A stretch of 29,628 bases of DNA, from NCBI RefSeq assembly GCF_946885885.1, contig NZ_CAMPHN010000045.1, forward strand, positions 1 to 29,628, read 5' to 3'. This document shows positions 2,741 through 29,628 of this stretch, piece by piece. Positions within the stretch are counted from its first letter, which is position 1. Each line of letters starts with the position of its first letter. The notes beneath the pieces are model-generated. The model ran no database searches, was not told the DNA's origin, and saw only the letters and a list, made by a program, of their open reading frames with translations. The DNA comes from an uncultured Pseudomonas sp. Lineage in GTDB: Bacteria > Pseudomonadota > Gammaproteobacteria > Pseudomonadales > Pseudomonadaceae. Both the position numbers and the translations under genes were made by a program.

Positions 2741-3652
2741 TCAGGTCGCGATCTGACGAAAAGGGCTGCATAACGCGGCGGATCGTCCAACGTCTGCGCA
2801 CTCTTCGCGCTGAGTGCTAACGGCAACCGGGGTTAGAAAGCCTAGCAAAGCCTGCTGAGTGGCAAGCCAAGCGTCCTTATGCTCCATATCGAGGTAATGC
2901 CCGGTCTTTTCGATGGTGCGGAACTGGCAGTGACGCGCATGCTCGGCGAACAACCGCGCATCGTCCGCCGTGGTGTACTCGTCCCACTCGCCATTGACGA
3001 ACAGCAGGGGGATATCGATAGCGGCGGCGCAGGCTTTGTAGCAATCCGTAGGGTCCTGTGCGAACGCATCGCAGATATGGAAGTGCAACTGCTGGTATTC
3101 ACGCTCGGCCAGGTTACTGATATGGCGGTAGTTGAAGCGCTTGAACAGCGGCGGCAAATGCTTGCCGATGGTGTTGTTGATCAGCCGCGCGACATTCAGG
3201 CGGTCGCCCTCCGAGATGCAACTCAGCGCGGCCTTGATGTAGTCGCGCATCGGTTCGCTCATCCGCGCGGCGAATGAGCCGATCACCGCCTTCTCGATCC
3301 GTCGCGGCCGTTGCGCCAACGCCAGCAACGTGGAGGCGCTCCCCCATGAGAACGCCACTACATGGTTGGCGTCGAAATGCTCGATCAACGCCAGCAGAAT
3401 CTCCGCCTCGTCTTCCTTGCGGATCGGCTCGTCGTGAAAGTTATGCAACTGCGACCGTCCGGCGTAAGGCTGGTCGTACAACACCACATTGAAGTGCGGC
3501 TGCAAGTAACGCACGGTTTGCGCGAAGGACGTGGTGGTGGCAAGCGAGCCGTTGACCAGAATGATCGTTTTAGTGGCCGCCTTGTTAGCGTAGTACTCGG
3601 TATAAACCCTGTATTTCCTATGAATTTCAACGATGGCGGTTTCCGGCCTCAT
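2741..3652 (-). CDS. phaG: PhaG, (R)-3-hydroxyacyl-ACP thioesterase/transacylase
   Basis: Alpha/beta hydrolase that diverts (R)-3-hydroxyacyl-ACP from fatty-acid synthesis toward PHA precursors, allowing PHA from sugars. The 303-aa protein begins MRPETAIVEI-KYRVYTEYY, close to known PhaG, and keeps VNGSLATTTSFAQTVR, HFNVVLYDQPYAG and the nucleophile motif FSWGSAST (S102). A C-terminal GHYLDME supplies the likely catalytic His. RhlA, the rhamnolipid-precursor enzyme, is the nearest alternative family, but the N-terminus and the phaC neighbour favour PhaG. Start chosen at 3652 because GCCAGGAGGAG sits just upstream; an in-frame ATG at 3775 lacks one. The C-terminal tail after about residue 280 looks unrelated to the family and may be an extension. 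Confidence 0.9.
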   Translation of the reverse strand: MRPETAIVEIHRKYRVYTEYYANKAATKTIILVNGSLATTTSFAQTVRYLQPHFNVVLYDQPYAGRSQLHNFHDEPIRKEDEAEILLALIEHFDANHVVAFSWGSASTLLALAQRPRRIEKAVIGSFAARMSEPMRDYIKAALSCISEGDRLNVARLINNTIGKHLPPLFKRFNYRHISNLAEREYQQLHFHICDAFAQDPTDCYKACAAAIDIPLLFVNGEWDEYTTADDARLFAEHARHCQFRTIEKTGHYLDMEHKDAWLATQQALLGFLTPVAVSTQREECADVGRSAALCSPFRQIAT

Positions 3653-5560: not shown

Positions 5561-5710
5561 GCGTGGTTGGGCGATTTGAAGGTCAATAGTTGGTCGTGAG
5601 TTATTTTTGATTAACCGGTTTAACATTGCCCTTCGGGACTGCTGGCAAATGGTCAGGAGCCGCCATTCAACATCAATATCGTGGTTTGTTCCCGACTACT
5701 TAACGAGTTC
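5561..5710. other. Left flank of cassette array
   Basis: No gene seen. On the minus strand a GTTAAAC core-like heptamer (5618-5624) and the pairing arms TCGGGA/TCCCGA could belong to a decayed attC ending the last cassette, but the outer halves do not pair, so this is not called as attC. Confidence 0.3.
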
Positions 5711-5989
5711 TCAATTCCTGTCGCCGAAGTTATGGTATTGAAACTGTGGCACAACGACTTCCTTGTCGCTTGCTAGTTTTTCACCACAATAAGGGCAGAA
5801 TGCTACCTGAATCTTTACGACCTCGATTAACTGCCCCTCATACTCAAGATAAGGGTCGTTTTCGAGATCTTCCTCTGTCGCTATCCTGTTCAGGTTTAAA
5901 TAGATATCGAAACCGTCTTCTTCAAACCATATTTATCCAAGCGAGCAAGAAGCAAAATTATGAAACAATGTTGGCACCTCGTTGATTAC
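5711..5989 (-). pseudogene. Small zinc-ribbon-like cassette gene with inverted 5' end
   Basis: On the minus strand 5711-5932 encodes 73 residues without a start: IWFEEDGFDIYLNLNR, then EDLENDPYLEYEGQLIEV, then FCPYCGEKL, ending FGDRN and a stop. A TAA directly precedes it. On the plus strand at 5960-5989 is ATG followed by codons for MKQCWHLVDY. If the 57 bases 5933-5989 are flipped in place, MKQCWHLVDY joins in frame to IWFEED, giving an intact 83-aa gene with AAGAAG ahead of the ATG. The CPYCG pair suggests a metal-binding knuckle. The gene is thus probably broken by a local inversion. The next attC (5990-6059) abuts the breakpoint. Function unknown. Confidence 0.6.
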
Positions 5990-6059
5990 TCATAACGTTT
6001 GAGTTCAACGGACGACAAAAACACAGCTTTTGACGGTCCGCTGGAACGAATGATTATAC
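5990..6059 (-). repeat. attC site (between cassettes 8 and 9)
   Basis: Core TCATAAC at 5990-5996 and a degenerate ATTATAC at 6053-6059 flank complementary arms (AACGGAC with GTCCGCT, extended by GTTC with GAAC). About 70 bases. Different in sequence from the GGGGCGGGC-type sites further right, which is normal within arrays. Confidence 0.6.
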
Positions 6060-6066
6060 CAAATAG

Positions 6067-6636
6067 TCATAAAGTTACCGACTGTGATGGGCCATTGCTG
6101 TTCTCATTTAGAAAAATTTGAGCGCCGTCTGAGAATTCGTAAAACAAAGACCAATGCTCTCTTGATGGGTCAATTCCTTCTGAAAAATTCTTTCCATGGC
6201 GAGCGCACAAGGAGTAGTAACCAAACATATAGAAGGCCACATTCTTGTCAATTTGATTGCTTCTGACGAGAAGAGCAATTTCCTCGAAGAAAACAAGCAG
6301 CTTCCTTTTCTTGTCCCACATATCTTCTTCGGCAAGACGGGGCTTATCTGCATCAATGAGGCAAAGGACTTCGTATAATTCTTTGTCGTCAAATAGACGG
6401 CGATGTTGTGATAAGAAAAATTCCGTTCTTTTTAAGCGAGCTGCCGTTTCCTTATCACTAATATCCTTTTCGCGCTGCTCGTTTAAGCGGCGAAGCTCCT
6501 GATAAATTTTGTACAGGCCAGCTGAACCAAATAAAACCGCAGAAATAACTCCAATTGCTTGCCAGTGGACAGCCCATTCCTGCATGGTGCGGCATATACT
6601 TGAAAGTGGTATGCAATAAAGTTCATGGGATTGCAT
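6067..6636 (-). CDS. Membrane-anchored protein, second gene of two-gene cassette (DUF4760-like)
   Basis: A 189-aa protein with one transmembrane segment near the N-terminus (IGVISAVLFGSAGLYKIY), then a charged coiled-coil-prone stretch (QELRRLNEQREKDISDKETAARLKR, given here only as a region about 46-72) and a helical cytosolic part with FFLSQHRRLFDD. The order resembles DUF4760 proteins; this is weak. Its ATG at 6636 directly follows the TAA of the upstream gene (TAAATG), implying translational coupling; an internal ATG at 6585 has no ribosome site. No attC lies between the two genes, so they form one cassette. Confidence 0.6.
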   Translation of the reverse strand: MQSHELYCIPLSSICRTMQEWAVHWQAIGVISAVLFGSAGLYKIYQELRRLNEQREKDISDKETAARLKRTEFFLSQHRRLFDDKELYEVLCLIDADKPRLAEEDMWDKKRKLLVFFEEIALLVRSNQIDKNVAFYMFGYYSLCARHGKNFSEGIDPSREHWSLFYEFSDGAQIFLNENSNGPSQSVTL

Positions 6637-7458
6637 TTATAAAATCTCTAGAATATCGTGAACAACATACCGTTTAACTACCCCCTGCGCACTAACAATC
6701 TTGGTGACTCTTAGGTGCATTTTTCCAGTTTCCCCGTCGTTGTGGTTCTGCATTGATTTTAGTGCCAAACCTCTCACACGTTTGTCGTCTGGATTGGCTA
6801 GCTCGAACGAAATCACACGACCTTCTTCATCAGAGAACAAGCGCCCAAACTGACTCAAGACATTAACCCGCGTGATGTTACCAAGTATGTACTCGGATTG
6901 TGTTTGCTCTTCTCGAATACTTACATAGTCCAGCGTGTCAGAGGTTAGCTCTAGCGAATCACCCACTCGCGGGCGGGACAGGAAAGCTTTAATAGAATTA
7001 TCATGAGAGATTGCTCTATGAATCAATTGCATCGGACTTTCAAGTGCATCCGCGATTTCATATATGAACAAATCGTTCTTTTCTGAGATTCGTCTAACTT
7101 GCGCCGTTTGTGGCTCGTAAGAAAAGCCAACGGCAGCATGCCAAGTCCAATTTAGATAATCCCAAAACGTGTTAGCCAATACTGAGCGGCCAATTTTTTC
7201 AACAATTTTGTTTTCGAACCTGATATCAACTTGCTCTTCAAAACATCCCTTCTTCGACGAGTGGATAAAGGCTTTAGCTCCGTGCGCACTCTGATTCTTC
7301 TTTCGTACTTCTTCGTCATTGGCGAATGAATGAGACACAAGATTTACGGCTCGTGCTAGGCCGTATATTGTGTTTGCTGCGTCATACACATCGAGCAAGC
7401 CTTCGTCGGTAATCCCACCCTCCAACCTTAGAATTAAACTAACTTCCTTCTCGCTCAT
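6637..7458 (-). CDS. Hypothetical cassette protein, first gene of two-gene cassette (DUF7946-like)
   Basis: A 273-aa soluble protein. The opening LILRLEGGITDEGLLDVYDA and the following AHGAKAFIHSSKKGCFEEQVD resemble proteins annotated as DUF7946, but I hold this loosely. No signal peptide, membrane segment or catalytic motif is seen. AAAGGATAA precedes the ATG at 7458. Coupled without a gap to the membrane protein at 6067-6636; a soluble sensor or enzyme coupled to a membrane partner is a plausible arrangement but is inference. The attC at 7485-7561 lies upstream. Confidence 0.7.
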   Translation of the reverse strand: MSEKEVSLILRLEGGITDEGLLDVYDAANTIYGLARAVNLVSHSFANDEEVRKKNQSAHGAKAFIHSSKKGCFEEQVDIRFENKIVEKIGRSVLANTFWDYLNWTWHAAVGFSYEPQTAQVRRISEKNDLFIYEIADALESPMQLIHRAISHDNSIKAFLSRPRVGDSLELTSDTLDYVSIREEQTQSEYILGNITRVNVLSQFGRLFSDEEGRVISFELANPDDKRVRGLALKSMQNHNDGETGKMHLRVTKIVSAQGVVKRYVVHDILEIL

Positions 7459-7484
7459 ACAGAATTATCCTTTAGTGTTAGAGG

Positions 7485-7561
7485 GCATAACGATTAAGCT
7501 AAGGGGCCGGCTTTAGCCGATCCAAGTGAGCGAAGCGAACGATTTGAGCGACTTGTTAGGT
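7485..7561 (-). repeat. attC site (between cassettes 7 and 8)
   Basis: GCATAAC (7485-7491) and GTTAGGT (7555-7561) bound a 77-base site with the GGGGCCGGCTTTAGCC centre and GAGCGAAGCGAACGATTTGAGC, near-identical to the sites at 11176 and 11786. Confidence 0.85.
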
Positions 7562-7576
7562 GCACTTTCGGGGAGG

Positions 7577-8029
7577 CTACTGCTTAAATACCATGCCTTC
7601 CCATGCTTTTACTTCACCCGGAGATCCTTTATATAAAAGACTTCCGCGAAGGATTAGTTTACCTCCCCTGTACTCGACGTGCATGAGCAGGGAGCCGGCG
7701 TCAATTACTTTGTATGATACGGGCTCGGTGAAGGCCATGAAGTACATGTTTTTTATCGTCCCGACCACGTTGTATGTGGTTACATCGCCTGGCTCTCCGT
7801 GAGAATATATACCACTGATTTTGTCGCCCCACTGCTTAAGATTAAAATTGGCGTCTCCTTCTTCTGATGACCATTCGCCGTCTATTCTGACACCTCTGTA
7901 AACTTTGTCAGAAAACCATGGGATCAATATTTTTCTAAAAGCCTCTGAGATACATATAAAAATTGCTGTCGCGACTAGACTGCTGGCAATCCCTAGCAAC
8001 AGTGGGAGAGTAATACTTTGTTGATCCAT
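7577..8029 (-). CDS. Membrane-anchored beta-rich cassette protein
   Basis: A 150-aa protein with one N-terminal transmembrane helix (LPLLLGIASSLVATAIFICI) followed by a beta-rich domain of about 105 residues that opens with RGVRIDGEWSSEEGD and continues KISGIYSHGEPGDV and TYNVVGTIKN. The GEW turn and regular strand pattern suggest a lipocalin-like barrel. CBASS effectors of the Cap15 type also place a small barrel behind membrane helices, but they have two helices and a nucleotidyltransferase partner, absent here, so that link is speculative. The ATG at 8029 has no strong ribosome site of its own; AGGT of the attC core lies about 7 bases upstream. Confidence 0.7.
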   Translation of the reverse strand: MDQQSITLPLLLGIASSLVATAIFICISEAFRKILIPWFSDKVYRGVRIDGEWSSEEGDANFNLKQWGDKISGIYSHGEPGDVTTYNVVGTIKNMYFMAFTEPVSYKVIDAGSLLMHVEYRGGKLILRGSLLYKGSPGEVKAWEGMVFKQ

Positions 8030-8036
8030 GGGATGT

Positions 8037-8290
8037 ACCTAACGAGGTTGTAGAAAAACGAAATGGTAAATTTTGCGGCTAGGATTTTGGCTATTTTTTA
8101 GCCGAAAACCTGCACCTCTCTTGAAATCTAACGTATTCATCTCGCTTAATTTCTCCAGACTTCGCATACGACAAGGCTCTTGAATAAGCCTTGAGGTTTT
8201 CCTACAGCCCCAACGCTTGCAGCATGCGCCCCATGGAATGAAGCCGAAGACGCAATGTAGTGGGCGTCGCCGTGCCTGCACTTGTTAGGT
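8037..8290 (-). repeat. attC site interrupted by 168-bp element (between cassettes 6 and 7)
   Basis: ACCTAAC at 8037-8043 and GTTAGGT at 8284-8290. Removing the 168-base element and one copy of the duplicated AAC restores an 83-base attC. The middle of this site differs from the GGGGCGGGC type. Confidence 0.75.
8044..8211. mobile_element. 168-bp MITE-like element, copy 1, inside attC
   Basis: Ends GAGGTTGTAGAAAAAC and, reverse-complemented, GGGGCTGTAGGAAAAC (13 of 16 match). AAC occurs immediately on both sides (8041-8043 and 8212-8214). About 89% identical, without gaps, to copy 2 at 9280-9447 by hand alignment. Read on the minus strand it carries a 33-codon open frame starting MNTLDFK and ending LQPR with its TAG made by the attC GTTAGG core. 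An internal GGCTATTTTTTAGCC hairpin is present. No transposase. Confidence 0.7.
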
Positions 8291-9235
8291 GCCGGGGTTG
8301 TCAGAGCGAACCACACAGGGGCGATTCCAAACTACTCGTTCCTTTGAAAGCTCTGAAATTATTGCATTCACCAACGGCTTTCCGCCCGGAAATGGCAGAT
8401 AAAGGCCAACGACTCTAGGGACAACAACCGTGCCGTCTTCGTAAAGGAGGGCCTTAATAGAACCAACTGCAACGATTGCATTTTGAGCGGTGGTTCGATT
8501 CAATTCGCTCTGGATTGGCAGTGCAGCAGCTATGGCTTGCCCATTTACTCCCAATGTTTGAACGGTAAGTGAACCTTGAAGTCTTTTAGCTTCGGCTTCA
8601 GCGCCGATTGCTCCAAGGCCTGAAATATTTGCAGCACCTTCTGCTGATTCAATGTTTGCAGTTACACGCAATCCGATTCCTACATAGACTGGTAGATTAA
8701 ACTCTTCGTAACCCTCTGGAGTTTTGGAGTTTTCATCAGCCCTAAGGACCTCGAAAATTTCGGAACCATAGGTATACTGACCGCGATTATTGGGCGCAGA
8801 CAATGCTACCGGGACTGTTGCGCCAGTGGAATATTCTTGAGCGAATTTTCTAATCCATAGTTTGACATTTGTTGTATCCGCGTTGATGTAGTCAACCGTT
8901 ACTCGGTAAGAATCTGCTTCTCCACTTACTTTGCTTGTTCCGTAAGTTACGGCTCCGGATTTGAAAAATTGCTCTATTGACATCCTAACTGCGTTGTCAG
9001 GGAGTGATTCAAGCAGGTTTTTGTAGCCAATCTGACCCACCTCTACGCTTTCAGCTAGAGTCGAAAGTTCATTACTTTCGCATGAGCTTCCAGGATTCGT
9101 TTTAACCGAAAATGGATCGACTGGAATATATGTATAGCCAGACAAATGTTCAGCCGGGGGTTTGGGTATGGTGACTGCGCAACCACTGCTTAGAATAAGA
9201 GCGATAGCTGCAACACTAAAAATCTTGAGGCTCAT
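8285..9235 (-). CDS. Putative cassette lipoprotein
   Basis: A 316-aa predicted lipoprotein: MSLKIFSVAAIALILSSGC, with C19 as the likely lipidated residue (the -3 position is Ser rather than Leu, so the lipobox is imperfect). The mature part is beta-rich and low in charge with no domain I recognise; a repetitive Ala/Glu segment (about 220-245) may be helical. Start set at 9235, where GGGAG lies 8 bases upstream; a longer frame from 9274 adds 13 residues. The stop TAA lies in the attC core. Probably in the inner or outer membrane facing the periplasm; function unknown. Confidence 0.75.
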   Translation of the reverse strand: MSLKIFSVAAIALILSSGCAVTIPKPPAEHLSGYTYIPVDPFSVKTNPGSSCESNELSTLAESVEVGQIGYKNLLESLPDNAVRMSIEQFFKSGAVTYGTSKVSGEADSYRVTVDYINADTTNVKLWIRKFAQEYSTGATVPVALSAPNNRGQYTYGSEIFEVLRADENSKTPEGYEEFNLPVYVGIGLRVTANIESAEGAANISGLGAIGAEAEAKRLQGSLTVQTLGVNGQAIAAALPIQSELNRTTAQNAIVAVGSIKALLYEDGTVVVPRVVGLYLPFPGGKPLVNAIISELSKERVVWNRPCVVRSDNPGT

Positions 9236-9272
9236 CTGAATTCTCCCTTGTTGATTATCTGAAGCACTAGGC

Positions 9273-9510
9273 ACCTAACGAGGCTGTAGAAAAACTAAAT
9301 GGCAAATTTTACGGCTAGGATTCTGGCTATTTTTTAGCCGAGAACCAGCATCTCCCTTGAAATCTAACGTATTCATCGCGCTTAAATTCTCCAGATTTCG
9401 CGTACGACAAGACACTTGAATAACCCTAGAGGTTTTCCTACAGCCTCAACGTTTGGTTAAGGGGCGGGCTTTAGCCCATCCCAGCGGGTGATTTGAACCA
9501 GTTGTTAGGC
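9273..9510 (-). repeat. attC site interrupted by 168-bp element (between cassettes 5 and 6)
   Basis: ACCTAAC at 9273-9279 and GTTAGGC at 9504-9510. With the element and one AAC removed, a 67-base attC with the GGGGCGGGCTTTAGCCC centre is restored exactly. Confidence 0.8.
9280..9447. mobile_element. 168-bp MITE-like element, copy 2, inside attC
   Basis: Terminal inverted repeats GAGGCTGTAGAAAAAC and GAGGCTGTAGGAAAAC match at 15 of 16. AAC flanks both sides (9277-9279 and 9448-9450). Same length, orientation and insertion point in the attC core as copy 1, though the surrounding attC sequence differs. The 33-codon minus-strand frame is also open here, with five amino-acid differences from copy 1. 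Confidence 0.75.
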
Positions 9511-9810
9511 TATGTTGCCCTCTAGTACGGCAGGAGTTCCAATATACGTCACGTATAAGAATGTACCGTTACTGAAGTTCTGCGCGGAGGTGGAAATTTG
9601 TACGCCTATAATTGCATTGGCTTCGGATGGTGCGCTGCGTATGAAAGCATCAACGACCTCTTGATATTCATTTTTCTTTCTTTCAAGAAGCCCTCGAATT
9701 ACTCCTTTATTTGAAACCTCAACTGTTCCTGTAATCTGGATCATTCCGAAGATCTCTTTAACAACTATGCCTTCAGGGAGATTCTCAGTTGTTAGAAGAA
9801 GTTTTGTCAT
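9505..9810 (-). CDS. YbjQ/UPF0145 family cassette protein
   Basis: A 101-aa soluble protein that fits the YbjQ (UPF0145) domain across its length: an early TTENLPEGIVV, a central VVDAFIRSAPSEANAIIGV, then the strand NGTFLYVTYIGTPAVL near the end. Members form pentameric beta-rich rings; their role is unknown. AAGGAA precedes the ATG at 9810. The TAA stop is formed within the GTTAGGC core of the downstream attC, a sign that it travels as a cassette. Confidence 0.8.
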   Translation of the reverse strand: MTKLLLTTENLPEGIVVKEIFGMIQITGTVEVSNKGVIRGLLERKKNEYQEVVDAFIRSAPSEANAIIGVQISTSAQNFSNGTFLYVTYIGTPAVLEGNIA

Positions 9811-9840
9811 AGTGTACGTTCCTTGTGGTTTGGTGATTTG

Positions 9841-9897
9841 GCCTAGCGTTTTTTGTTAAGGGGCGGTTTTTTGCCACTTTAATTTAAAGCGTTTTTC
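9841..9897 (-). repeat. Degenerate attC site (between cassettes 4 and 5)
   Basis: On the minus strand the 3' core reads GCTAGGC (one base off GTTAGGC) and the 5' core is poor (GAAAAAC). An inner stem AAGGGGC (9858-9864) with GCCACTT (9873-9879) remains, one mismatch. Probably decayed, so these two cassettes may now be fixed together. Confidence 0.45.
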
Positions 9898-10144
9898 AGT
9901 CTCGCTTCAGTGGCTCTGTGTAAACACATATTTTATGTGCGGTATGAGAGCCTTCGATCTTCCAAAAAATATGTTGAATATCTTTGACCCTAACTGTTTT
10001 GTTAGTGTCGCTGAGATTCATGGAGCCGCCATGGATGGCGTCTCCAACCTTTAATGCACCGAATGGTGTGCTGCTTTCATATGACGCAGCAACACAACCG
10101 CTGTCATCTGGTTCGTAGATTTCGAGGTGATACTCTGTTTTCAT
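9896..10144 (-). CDS. Small hypothetical cassette protein
   Basis: An 82-aa soluble protein starting MKTEYHLEIYEPDDSG, beta-rich, with ASYESSTPFGALKVGDAI and a C-terminal HKICVYTEPLKRD. No family recognised. The start at 10144 is fixed by CCAGGAG just upstream; the longer frame from 10264 would run through the attC and is rejected. Sits between a well-formed attC (10168-10263) and a decayed one. Confidence 0.65.
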   Translation of the reverse strand: MKTEYHLEIYEPDDSGCVAASYESSTPFGALKVGDAIHGGSMNLSDTNKTVRVKDIQHIFWKIEGSHTAHKICVYTEPLKRD

Positions 10145-10167
10145 GAGTGACTCCTGGTTGTTGCTTG

Positions 10168-10263
10168 GGATAACGTAAAGGTGAGGGGCGGCCGGAGCGC
10201 GAAGCGCGGAGGGAACCTGCAAGCGCAGCTTGTAGGCCGTCCCTCTCGACCGCCATGTTAGCA
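10168..10263 (-). repeat. attC site (between cassettes 3 and 4), divergent type
   Basis: GGATAAC (10168-10174) and GTTAGCA (10257-10263) enclose long pairing arms, GAGGGGCGGCC with GGCCGTCCCTC, plus an inner AGCGCGAAGCGC. 96 bases, longer than its neighbours. Both cores depart slightly from consensus. Confidence 0.65.
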
Positions 10264-10264
10264 A

Positions 10265-11158
10265 TCATGCGCTTACGGACATGGCAGTCATTCGATAAGC
10301 CGGTCCGTCGATAGAGAGGCGACAAAATTTTTCCACCATTGGTTTCGCTGAATCTATCGAATTCCTGTAGTTTTCGAAACTGCCCATGTTGTTGCTTACG
10401 GCCATTAACTTATCCAGAACGCTCATTACGTAGGATAAGAATGTCCTTTGCACCAAGCTTAGTGACTCTCCGTCTTCGACTCTTTTGGTCACCTTACCAA
10501 TGACGGTGAATTCGCCATCAGTGAGCTTTGCCTTTATCTCCTTCGGGTCGTAGTCAGTTACATCTAGGTCGACAACACCAAATGCAACTCCCGTTCTTGG
10601 ATGACACAAAAGCATTTCAAGTTGCTTTGACTTCAAGTAGTCCTGCTCAATTGCCTCGATGATTTGCGTTATAGGCTTTTCGTATTTGAGAAATTCGTCA
10701 AGCGACTTCTTGTCTATTCCGAACTTGACTCCGAAGTGCTTCAGAATCTGGATGATCAATGGCGCTGACGTCTGCAATGTTTCGACTAATTGAAATATGT
10801 CTATTGGCTGTAGGATGGCCTTCGCTTTGATGTACTGGCCCGCTTCAAAGTCTGTTCCCGAGCCATTTTGTATTTCCTTAATTTCTTCAAGCTCGTCGAC
10901 AACCGTCATATGCAATCCACCTAGGGTGTATCTCTTAACAGTTTTGACTTCATTCGCGCTTGCGCTACCCCCCTCAATTCCCAGTTCTGCCTTGCCAAGC
11001 AATCCTTGCAGGAACGAAAACCCTATCTTTGCATTGGCTTTGCTATTGGCTGAGCTATTTGTCTTTTCTTCTGACTCTGTGCTGACGCCCTTAAACAGAT
11101 ATGCGGCGGCATTCAAAACCATTTTTTCGTTTAGGTACAGAGGCTCAAGATATGCCAT
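10265..11158 (-). CDS. DUF6414-like cassette protein
   Basis: A 297-aa soluble protein. The order EPLYLNEKMV-AAYLFKG at the start, a polar low-complexity Ser/Asn/Lys segment (about 28-45), a glycine-containing stretch (LQGLLGKAELGIEGG) and an IYLD/LFxG-then-FxxG arrangement resemble DUF6414 proteins; I hold this at even odds. No membrane segment or catalytic motif. AAGGAC precedes the ATG at 11158. Its TGA is just upstream of the attC at 10168-10263. Function unknown. Confidence 0.7.
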   Translation of the reverse strand: MAYLEPLYLNEKMVLNAAAYLFKGVSTESEEKTNSSANSKANAKIGFSFLQGLLGKAELGIEGGSASANEVKTVKRYTLGGLHMTVVDELEEIKEIQNGSGTDFEAGQYIKAKAILQPIDIFQLVETLQTSAPLIIQILKHFGVKFGIDKKSLDEFLKYEKPITQIIEAIEQDYLKSKQLEMLLCHPRTGVAFGVVDLDVTDYDPKEIKAKLTDGEFTVIGKVTKRVEDGESLSLVQRTFLSYVMSVLDKLMAVSNNMGSFENYRNSIDSAKPMVEKFCRLSIDGPAYRMTAMSVSA

Positions 11159-11175
11159 AGGGCTGTCCTTGTGAT

Positions 11176-11252
11176 TGCTAACGATTAAGCTAAGGGGCGG
11201 GCTTTAGCCCGTCCCAGTGAGCGAAGCGAACGATTTGAGCGCATTGTTAGGT
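11176..11252 (-). repeat. attC site (between cassettes 2 and 3)
   Basis: TGCTAAC (11176-11182) and GTTAGGT (11246-11252), 77 bases, with the GGGGCGGGCTTTAGCCC centre. Nearly identical to the site at 11786-11862 outside the cores. Confidence 0.85.
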
Positions 11253-11780
11253 GCCAACATGCTCAGTAATGTAAGAAGTAAATTTTGATGCGTCATCTGT
11301 ATGCGCGAAGGCGTTGTTAGGGATGACCACGACTTGACCGTGCGTTAAATAAATTGCTAAGTGCTGTGAGAGCATTTGCACGCTCGATAGGCAGTTCCAT
11401 GGCAGAAGCGTTTGACCAAGTCTGCTCTTGAACTCCATTCCAAGATCGGAAACTGTAACGTGTTGATTAATTGGGAATGGCTCAAGAGATGCTCGTTGAG
11501 TGGCAAGAAACGCTCGGTGAATGTAGGCCCGGTAACCAAGATGAAAGGCTATGCCACCCAATGCACTTACGACCACGAAGAACATATTTGATATATACCA
11601 GTGCGGATTGTATCGCAACTCGTTTAAAGCTGAGACAAAACCAAAGCCAATAAAAATCCAAGTGACTAGATTTATTACTAGAGCAACTGACGTCCCCCGT
11701 GCGCACTTTGACGAGTGCTTCATAGCCAACCGTTGAGCGAGCGCGTAATCGGTCTTTTCAAAAGCGTAGGAGATTTCCAT
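11247..11780 (-). CDS. YcxB-like membrane protein
   Basis: A 177-aa inner-membrane protein: soluble N-terminus MEISYAFEKTDYALAQRLAM, two transmembrane helices (about 33-53 and 65-82), then a C-terminal YcxB-type domain with ISVSD-like VTVSDLGMEF and PWNCLSSVQMLSQHLAIYL and a closing VVIPNNAFA. This arrangement is that of the YcxB-like family, of unknown role. The ATG at 11780 lies 5 bases from AGGTG of the upstream attC, which probably serves as its ribosome site. The TAA stop is inside the downstream attC core. Confidence 0.8.
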   Translation of the reverse strand: MEISYAFEKTDYALAQRLAMKHSSKCARGTSVALVINLVTWIFIGFGFVSALNELRYNPHWYISNMFFVVVSALGGIAFHLGYRAYIHRAFLATQRASLEPFPINQHVTVSDLGMEFKSRLGQTLLPWNCLSSVQMLSQHLAIYLTHGQVVVIPNNAFAHTDDASKFTSYITEHVGT

Positions 11781-11785
11781 ATGGC

Positions 11786-11862
11786 ACCTAACGATTAAGC
11801 TAAGGGGCGGGCTTTAGCCCGTCCCAGCGAACGAAGTGAGCGATTTGAGCGCATTGTTAGGC
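11786..11862 (-). repeat. attC site (between cassettes 1 and 2)
   Basis: ACCTAAC (11786-11792) and GTTAGGC (11856-11862), both matching consensus, 77 bases, GGGGCGGGCTTTAGCCC centre. The best-preserved site in the array. Confidence 0.9.
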
Positions 11863-12276
11863 GTCACTTTTTACAATAGCTATTTCTTGACTTGTAAGGT
11901 CAGATTTGTTTGTCCAAAGATCTTTTCTCATTGCGATTACCGCGTTCAAAAAATTCTCCCGACTTGGCTGCTCTATGAAAGCCTTGACACTAAGTACGAC
12001 AGGCTTTGCAGCATAGAGAATCATCTCGTGATACTCCGCGTTAAGATATTCCATGACGTCTGACGCTGAGTCAATATCTGCTTGCCGGCTAGAAAGATAC
12101 TTGATGTTTTTGGGATTAAAGTAAACATCCATGTAAAGCAGGCAAGACTTGTAGCGACGCTCTTTACTTTCAAGTGCTTTGAATGCAAGTTCTTTATATT
12201 TGGTCTGAACGTTAGTAATAATCCCGCCGATTCCGACAAGGCCGAGTAGAGCAAGAATAATTTCGATGAGGGTCAT
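11857..12276 (-). CDS. Membrane-anchored hypothetical protein, first cassette
   Basis: A 139-aa protein with one N-terminal transmembrane helix (IEIILALLGLVGIGGIITNV) and a helical, charged cytosolic part containing ESKERRYKSCLLYMDVY and SVKAFIEQPSRENFLNAV. No family recognised. AGGAA lies upstream of the ATG at 12276. Being the integrase-proximal cassette it would be the most recently acquired, and most strongly expressed if an array promoter survives. The stop TAA falls within the attC core. Confidence 0.7.
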   Translation of the reverse strand: MTLIEIILALLGLVGIGGIITNVQTKYKELAFKALESKERRYKSCLLYMDVYFNPKNIKYLSSRQADIDSASDVMEYLNAEYHEMILYAAKPVVLSVKAFIEQPSRENFLNAVIAMRKDLWTNKSDLTSQEIAIVKSDA

Positions 12277-12293
12277 ATGGTTCCTGCTGTGAT

Positions 12294-12300
12294 GCCTAAC
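12294..12300 (-). repeat. Core site at the integrase-proximal end of the array
   Basis: GCCTAAC on plus (GTTAGGC on minus), 17 bases ahead of the first cassette gene. A second core-like GTTAGAT lies at 12305-12311. There is no attC-sized palindrome beyond, so this may be what is left of attI. That is inference. Confidence 0.5.
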
Positions 12301-29273: not shown

Positions 29274-29628
29274 CGGTGCTGCTGAAAGCTAGCTGTGTAG
29301 GCCGCTTTTATAGGGTGGGTCGGACCGCGCAGCTTTGTAGCCCGGATGCAATCCGGGGCATCGCTGGTGACCATAAGACCGATCCCCGGATTGCGCTGCG
29401 CTTATCCAGGCTACGGGCTGTAGCCCTTTCAACCATTCAAGGCTGAACGAGGGGCCGGGCGGCGCTCCGCTTTAGCCGCGATTGACCTTAACAGCGCAGA
29501 CCACCACAAGCATCGCGGCTAAAGCCCCTCCCACCCAGCCCGCATGAACCGACACATGTGGCGGTCACGACATTAGCTGTGTAGGCCGCTTTTATAGGGT
29601 GGGTCGGACCGCGCAGCTTTGTAGCCCG
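29274..29628. repeat. Repeat-only intergenic stretch at right edge with exact 55-bp direct repeats
   Basis: 29290-29344 and 29574-29628 are identical 55-base repeats (TAGCTGTGTAGGCCGCTTTT at their start). Between them are the GTAGCCCGG element (29338 on, with an inverted partner ending near 29413) and a palindrome, GCTTTAGCCGCGAT (about 29469-29482) with ATCGCGGCTAAAGC (29512-29525). No gene seen. The window ends inside the second repeat. Confidence 0.75.

Follow-up and report, generated by a model that had tools for sequence, protein, structure and literature searches.

We analysed a stretch of 29,628 nucleotides from an uncultured Pseudomonas sp. (contig NZ_CAMPHN010000045.1 of assembly GCF_946885885.1; hereafter the window), in which two copies of a 168-bp element without a transposase gene each split an attC site of an integron cassette array (Table 1). 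The array extends over about 5600-12300, between an aminotransferase gene and chromosomal genes. The two copies are identical at 150 of their 168 bases (89%), and on the plus strand they are flanked as CCTAAC/element/AACGCT (copy 1) and CCTAAC/element/AACGTT (copy 2); read along the cassette (minus) strand, the upstream attC half is followed by CGTT, the element, GTTAGGT and the cassette gene, in this order. The initial annotation, made from the sequence alone, had described two copies of the same length, about 89% identical and in the same orientation, with 16-base terminal inverted repeats and AAC (GTT on the cassette strand) on each side, directly against the GTTAGGY core of two otherwise different attC sites, and direct reading agrees with it throughout, most positions of the repeats being matched. 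The end-pair pattern at the element spacing matches the window at only these two places, and none of 100 shuffles contained two matches.

Table 1. Coordinates of the two elements, their flanking GTT triplets, the split attC sites and the adjoining cassette genes
Feature	Positions	Strand	Remarks
Copy 1, putative non-autonomous element	8044..8211	-	attC-orientation reading; ends GGGGCTGTAGGAAAAC / GAGGTTGTAGAAAAAC, 13/16 matched
Copy 2, same orientation as copy 1	9280..9447	-	168 bp; ends 15/16 matched
GTT, downstream side of copy 1, within core GTTAGGT (8037-8043)	8041..8043	-	direct reading
GTT, upstream side of copy 1	8212..8214	-	direct reading
GTT, downstream side of copy 2, within core GTTAGGT (9273-9279)	9277..9279	-	direct reading
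GTT, upstream side of copy 2	9448..9450	-	direct reading
Upstream half, R'' to CGTT, of the Microbulbifer-type attC interrupted by copy 1	8212..8290	-	similarity to L025, L215
Upstream half, R'' GCCTAAC to CGTT, of the Pseudomonas-type attC interrupted by copy 2	9448..9510	-	similarity to L197
Cassette gene directly downstream of copy 1, 150 aa	7577..8029	-	no Pfam match
Cassette gene directly downstream of copy 2, 329 aa from GTG	8285..9274	-	no Pfam match

Sites similar to both split attC sites occur without an element, and these carry a single GTT. The upstream half at copy 1 is 91.5% identical over 71 nt to an element-free site of Microbulbifer halophilus (L025:3776-3706) and also resembles one on a Providencia rettgeri plasmid (L215; 87% over about 77 nt); the attC type of copy 2 is found in a Pseudomonas-group genome (L197) both occupied, at 1672, and empty, at 2632. 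The empty sites that the initial annotation had proposed to look for in relatives thus exist for both copies, and its expectation that removing the element plus one AAC restores a normal attC is borne out in that both flank pairs, rejoined with one GTT, form a 7-pair R''/R' stem in their predicted folds on the cassette strand, with one G-T pair in copy 2. When folded with RNA parameters, the upstream half plus element end comes close to the joined site on the cassette strand, at -22.9 against -24.5 in copy 2 and -29.7 against -30.9 in copy 1. On the other strand, the one said to be used by the integrase, the corresponding values are -26.1 against -27.4 and -25.3 against -31.8, and the R''/R' stem is partly broken in the predicted fold of the element-split site. 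The split attC sites may keep some activity.

We screened 84,980 species genomes for a pattern of 11 bases from each end at a spacing of 120-150, using no flank; as the pattern admits only lengths of 152-182 and exact ends, it undercounts the copies, and its results apply to that size range alone. The survey yielded 115 loci, or 121 copies counting the window, whose hosts are by record title mostly Gammaproteobacteria and Betaproteobacteria (Microbulbifer, Oceanospirillum, Marinospirillum, Pseudomonas, Gallionella, Nitrotoga, Rhodocyclales and others). GTT is present on both sides of 104 of the 121 copies and on the expected right side of 113, where chance would give about 2/64 given that the copies were turned to put GTT there; in 103 copies the four bases on the left read CGTT. 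A different left triplet is seen in nine of the 113 copies with a right GTT. Among the eight copies that miss the right GTT, L018, L050, L087 and L099 have attC-like flanks with changed bases, and L008, L062, L088 and L102, from other phyla, look unrelated. The copies are not all independent, since the flanks of L106, L109 and L115 are 98-100% alike, and this is also the only group with a common downstream flank (75% identity over 52 nt). The initial annotation had named copies lying mostly outside attC sites as refuting targeting, and copies all sharing the same surrounding cassettes as pointing to one ancestral duplication; neither outcome was what the survey returned. Neither blastn against plasmids, phages and E. 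coli genomes nor an exact-pattern search of IMG/VR gave an element.

The flanks of the surveyed copies are attC-like beyond their controls. Fold z-scores below -3 were obtained for 24 of 105 upstream 100-mers compared with 2 of 105 random stretches, and z-scores below -2 for 40 of 108 60-mer flanks compared with 18 of 150 sampled CGTTA(A/G) sites of the same loci. A rule for an attC-like fold, in which AAC pairs with GTT, accepted 58 of 93 sites, against 19, 11 and 20 in three shuffles, and 29 of 101 sites passed an 8-bp hairpin test, compared with 6.6 on average at random (maximum 13) and with 49 of 452 CGTTA(A/G) sites; hairpins at non-attC sites give a weak signal. R''-to-core complementarity was exact at 10 of 101 sites (permuted mean 4.8, maximum 12; shuffled flanks mean 0.8), a weak signal because the R' end in an array belongs to the next cassette. 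An element-free relative was flagged for 51 of 107 flanks, or for about 47 after removal of four flags that proved false on reading (at least four did: L015, L029 at 2968, L056 and L093), and most of the remaining sites are attC-like by eye, in our judgement. A strict search for intact attC sites gave six candidates. At three loci (L015, L029 and L093) the copy abuts the end of another element; there and at L151, elements stand head to tail with a single GTT between them, and hence the edge of an element can itself serve as a new target.

The 113 copies with a right GTT fall into 21 families, the two largest having 50 copies (mostly 158-160 bp) and 33 copies (165-168 bp). The family of the window has five, namely one each from P. 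mendocina, P. benzenivorans and P. cuatrocienegasensis and the two window copies, and the remaining 18 families have three or fewer copies each; further window-type copies occur in P. flexibilis (two) and in the Pseudomonas-group genome L197 (one). Orientation relative to attC is nearly fixed: element-element alignments of at least 70 nt run the same way in 1602 cases and the opposite way in 4, counts that take each pair twice, so that the four represent two pairs, both involving L004. A cruder k-mer test gave 107 copies in the same orientation, 4 in the opposite one and 2 ties.

Pairs of the same ends are also found 1.6-1.9 kb apart around a transposase gene at some of the survey loci, and such full-length partners, with the same ends and the same GTT point, are present in two Pseudomonas species among others. 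Three partner transposases match DUF772 and DDE_Tnp_1_6, and against the IS1182 model NF033551 (cut-off 270) L045 (281) and L037 (278.4) score over the cut-off and L082 (252.9) under it. The full-length insertion sequence (IS) with the same ends that the initial annotation had suggested seeking was accordingly found, in an IS1182-type clade rather than among IS1111 elements. One P. benzenivorans contig (L082) carries both a full IS (217-1995) and an element of the window's family (2489-2656). In 32 element-bearing genomes of our choice from the 115 loci, a transposase match at E 1e-20 was obtained in 23, some with fragments only, and G001 had a distant relative only. The transposase was matched at 1e-30 in 24 of 369 gammaproteobacterial genomes, one of them (G142) distantly, and at E 1e-40 in 3 of 72,556 plasmid records, all with less than 60% identity.

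We collected 34 distinct transposase open reading frames (ORFs) of at least 38% identity and found element ends automatically in 26, of which 21 have the site GTT/GTT, one AAC/AAC, one AAT/AAT and one GTT/GAT, and two lie at a contig edge. L178 and L185 have GTT on the right and just GTT on the left before the contig edge, and the GTT/GAT element (L181) has another right end nearby that is followed by GTT. A looser look at the other eight gave GTT/GTT for L119 and L120 and AAC/AAC for L130 and L132, showed GTT for L100 on the left side only, and resolved no ends for L123, L160 and L184; L133, with a broken transposase gene, shows AAC/AAC. The partner elements measure 1379 to 1854, most of them 1.7-1.85 kb. 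Five distant relatives (20-25% identity) have other ends, and L188, L175 and L179 lie in CTAG, L138 and L191 elsewhere. The outer ends GAGNCTGT are common to the clade and three of these five, so the GAGG end is no special adaptation. A maximum-likelihood tree of 38 transposases, from which the short ORF L100 was left out, separates all 33 clade members by a branch with 100/100 support from the five distant ones, which have long branches and an unsure internal order. The transposase gene is oriented opposite to attC in the subclade of L126, L130 and L132 (100/99) and along attC in all further tree members whose site is resolved, except L124, which lies between AAT triplets at a site not confirmed as attC. 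Orientation thus seems to follow the transposase lineage.

Taken together, the two window elements are very probably non-autonomous, similar to miniature inverted-repeat transposable elements (MITEs), and moved in trans by the attC-targeting IS1182-type clade with the same ends. Features by which MITEs are recognised are present: terminal inverted repeats, the lack of a transposase gene, a putative target duplication (GTT on both sides of 104 of 121 copies) and an autonomous relative with the same ends, in line with what the initial annotation had proposed. In such a mechanism, the transposase of the clade would bind in trans the element ends GAGGCTGTAG(A/G)AAAAC and would join the element to the R' core of attC at CGTT, in one orientation relative to attC. 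The GTT repeat would arise on insertion, being duplicated through a 3-bp stagger, and the target would be recognised through its attC context, that is, sequence together with a hairpin-forming flank, rather than through a short motif alone.

Several observations weigh against this reading. No transposase match at E 1e-20 was obtained in nine of the 32 element-bearing genomes, and a tenth had a distant one only. The elements share only about 25-37 nt at their ends with the IS, and therefore they are not plain deletion forms of it. The k-mer test placed four copies closer to the reverse strand of another copy, and the fold rule misses 35 of the 93 sites, many of which we judge attC-like by eye. 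A copy at L084 lies outside attC, between genes that we take to encode ribosomal proteins L21 and L27; that at L063 lies in an intergenic gap whose neighbours do not look like cassettes; and those at L086, L048 and L007 are probably outside attC as well. At L084 the element (3168-3334) sits at CGTTAGAG in a gap between two genes, with no integron visible beside it. The claim of the initial annotation that the element targets the attC core is thus upheld by the GTT on the expected side and by the flanks, and has to be relaxed for L084 and L063, because of which we regard attC targeting as strong but not absolute.

The alternative that the initial annotation had offered is a tiny gene-less cassette of 171 bases, moved by the integron integrase at G^TT. 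The element boundaries do coincide exactly with what we take to be the integrase crossover point, an integron integrase scores over the family cut-off in 26 of the 32 host genomes examined, and the element end GAGG after GTT resembles GTTRRRY. However, the ends and the site are shared with full-length IS1182-type elements, and both window elements are predicted to fold as DNA by pairing their terminal repeats and an inner hairpin with the flanking GTTs unpaired, unlike the AAC-GTT pairing of an attC, so that these folds suggest that the element lacks the attC site of its own that a cassette would have. In addition, the AAT on both sides of the full-length IS at L124, the site of which is unconfirmed as attC, is allowed by target duplication, and some copies (L084, L063) lie outside integrons. 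We therefore consider the cassette explanation very unlikely. Remnants of IS1111-attC elements, which encode a DEDD transposase and a guide RNA, receive hardly any credence from us, since the elements with matching ends encode IS1182-type transposases with DDE_Tnp_1_6 and DUF772 rather than DEDD and have terminal repeats with GTT on each side. That both copies derive from a single ancestral duplication of an element-carrying cassette would account for their presence in one array; however, their attC sites and downstream genes differ and the copies are only 89% identical, which makes this origin most improbable.

It is equally improbable that the elements are a short peptide gene. The 159-bp and 168-bp classes have a frame that continues without a stop through the right end (..VFLQPR), and among the copies listed it is open in most 159-bp and in the Pseudomonas copies; in the 168-bp family the nonsynonymous (pN) and synonymous (pS) values in that frame are 0.121 and 0.213, from n=4 copies, too few to decide. 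However, pN/pS in that frame is 0.96 in the 159-bp class, with no excess at third positions, and the coding reading finds no support there; most of the 166-bp copies listed contain stops (L079 and L089 have none). The interiors of the 159-bp and 166-bp classes have a near-constant length and several conserved blocks across genera. Those of the 159-bp class carry no coding signal and no clearly recognised RNA. For 16 of its 30 sequences, retained after removal of near-copies, the consensus energy was -20.8, and -16.4 once the interior columns were shuffled (z -8.1, and -9.1 on the other strand); the consensus pairs comprise the terminal stem, its extension and two three-pair stems, so that no clear RNA emerged for this class. 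The two window elements exceed their shuffles in fold stability (z -3.05 and -3.51), with structures made up chiefly of the terminal stem and one inner hairpin. Between 7900 and 9600, three promoter-like matches were found (2.1 expected), none of them inside either copy, which gives no support to a promoter supplied by the element, and two terminator-like matches (2.1 expected), one per copy on the plus strand, are no excess over chance.

The clade resembles the IS1182 family in the NF033551 score over the cut-off for two of the three transposases tested, in the domains DUF772 and DDE_Tnp_1_6 and in the outer ends GAGNCTGT. It differs in its target, since three of the five distant relatives lie in CTAG, a target that we do not claim to define the IS1182 family, whereas the resolved members of this clade lie in the attC core with GTT repeats, or at AAT in one case. 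Group IIC-attC introns, which are ribozymes with a reverse transcriptase, likewise insert at attC, but a scan of the window against Rfam at the gathering threshold revealed no intron. The IS1111-attC group (ISPst6, ISKpn4) also targets the attC of integron cassettes (PMC11187229); its transposase belongs to another class, and the elements described here differ further in their terminal repeats, GTT repeats and non-autonomous relatives of 150-180 bp. Bacterial MITEs, including the Tn3-derived inverted-repeat miniature elements (TIMEs; PMC13367494), are similarly short, with terminal repeats and presumed mobilisation in trans; the present elements lie at integron recombination sites and have a presumed helper from a different family. 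Among the matches listed from the open-access literature, the titles and abstract openings mention no IS1182 lineage or MITE at attC, and to that extent such an association appears unreported, with subscription papers and ISfinder outside this scope; a named member may exist in ISfinder.

Elsewhere in the array, further attC sites without an element lie at 7485-7567, 11176-11258 and 11786-11868. A scan of eight array proteins, which did not include the ORF at 9896-10264, gave no match to an integrase or transposase family; five of the proteins lacked any Pfam match and two matched only domains of unknown function (DUFs). At the edge of the cassette region, 12695-12896 matches a C4 antisense RNA and its a1/b1 target (Rfam RF01695, RF03163), C4 antisense RNA being a phage-type immunity control. 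Near the two ends of the window there are a pair of 41-nt inverted repeats (85%) at 857-897 and 29306-29346, and exact 55-nt direct repeats at 1/169 and at 29290/29574.

The attC sites share little sequence, and integrases recognise them by their folded shape. A separate, unrelated transposase lineage at the same point provides a second, testable route to what marks an attC, and the clade permits asking how a DDE transposase shifts its target from CTAG to a structured site. It is conceivable, although we put this forward only tentatively, that attC replaced a short palindromic target in a lineage of DDE transposases, and that these, like the integrase, recognise it in part by its folded or palindromic structure. 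If true, the DDE transposase would be guided by structure and would be accompanied by many parasitic mini-elements, which insert where the integrase crosses over and may be carried along during cassette recombination. In many genera the attC sites of chromosomal integrons are interrupted by these elements, which can therefore confuse the annotation of cassette boundaries and may alter which cassettes still move.
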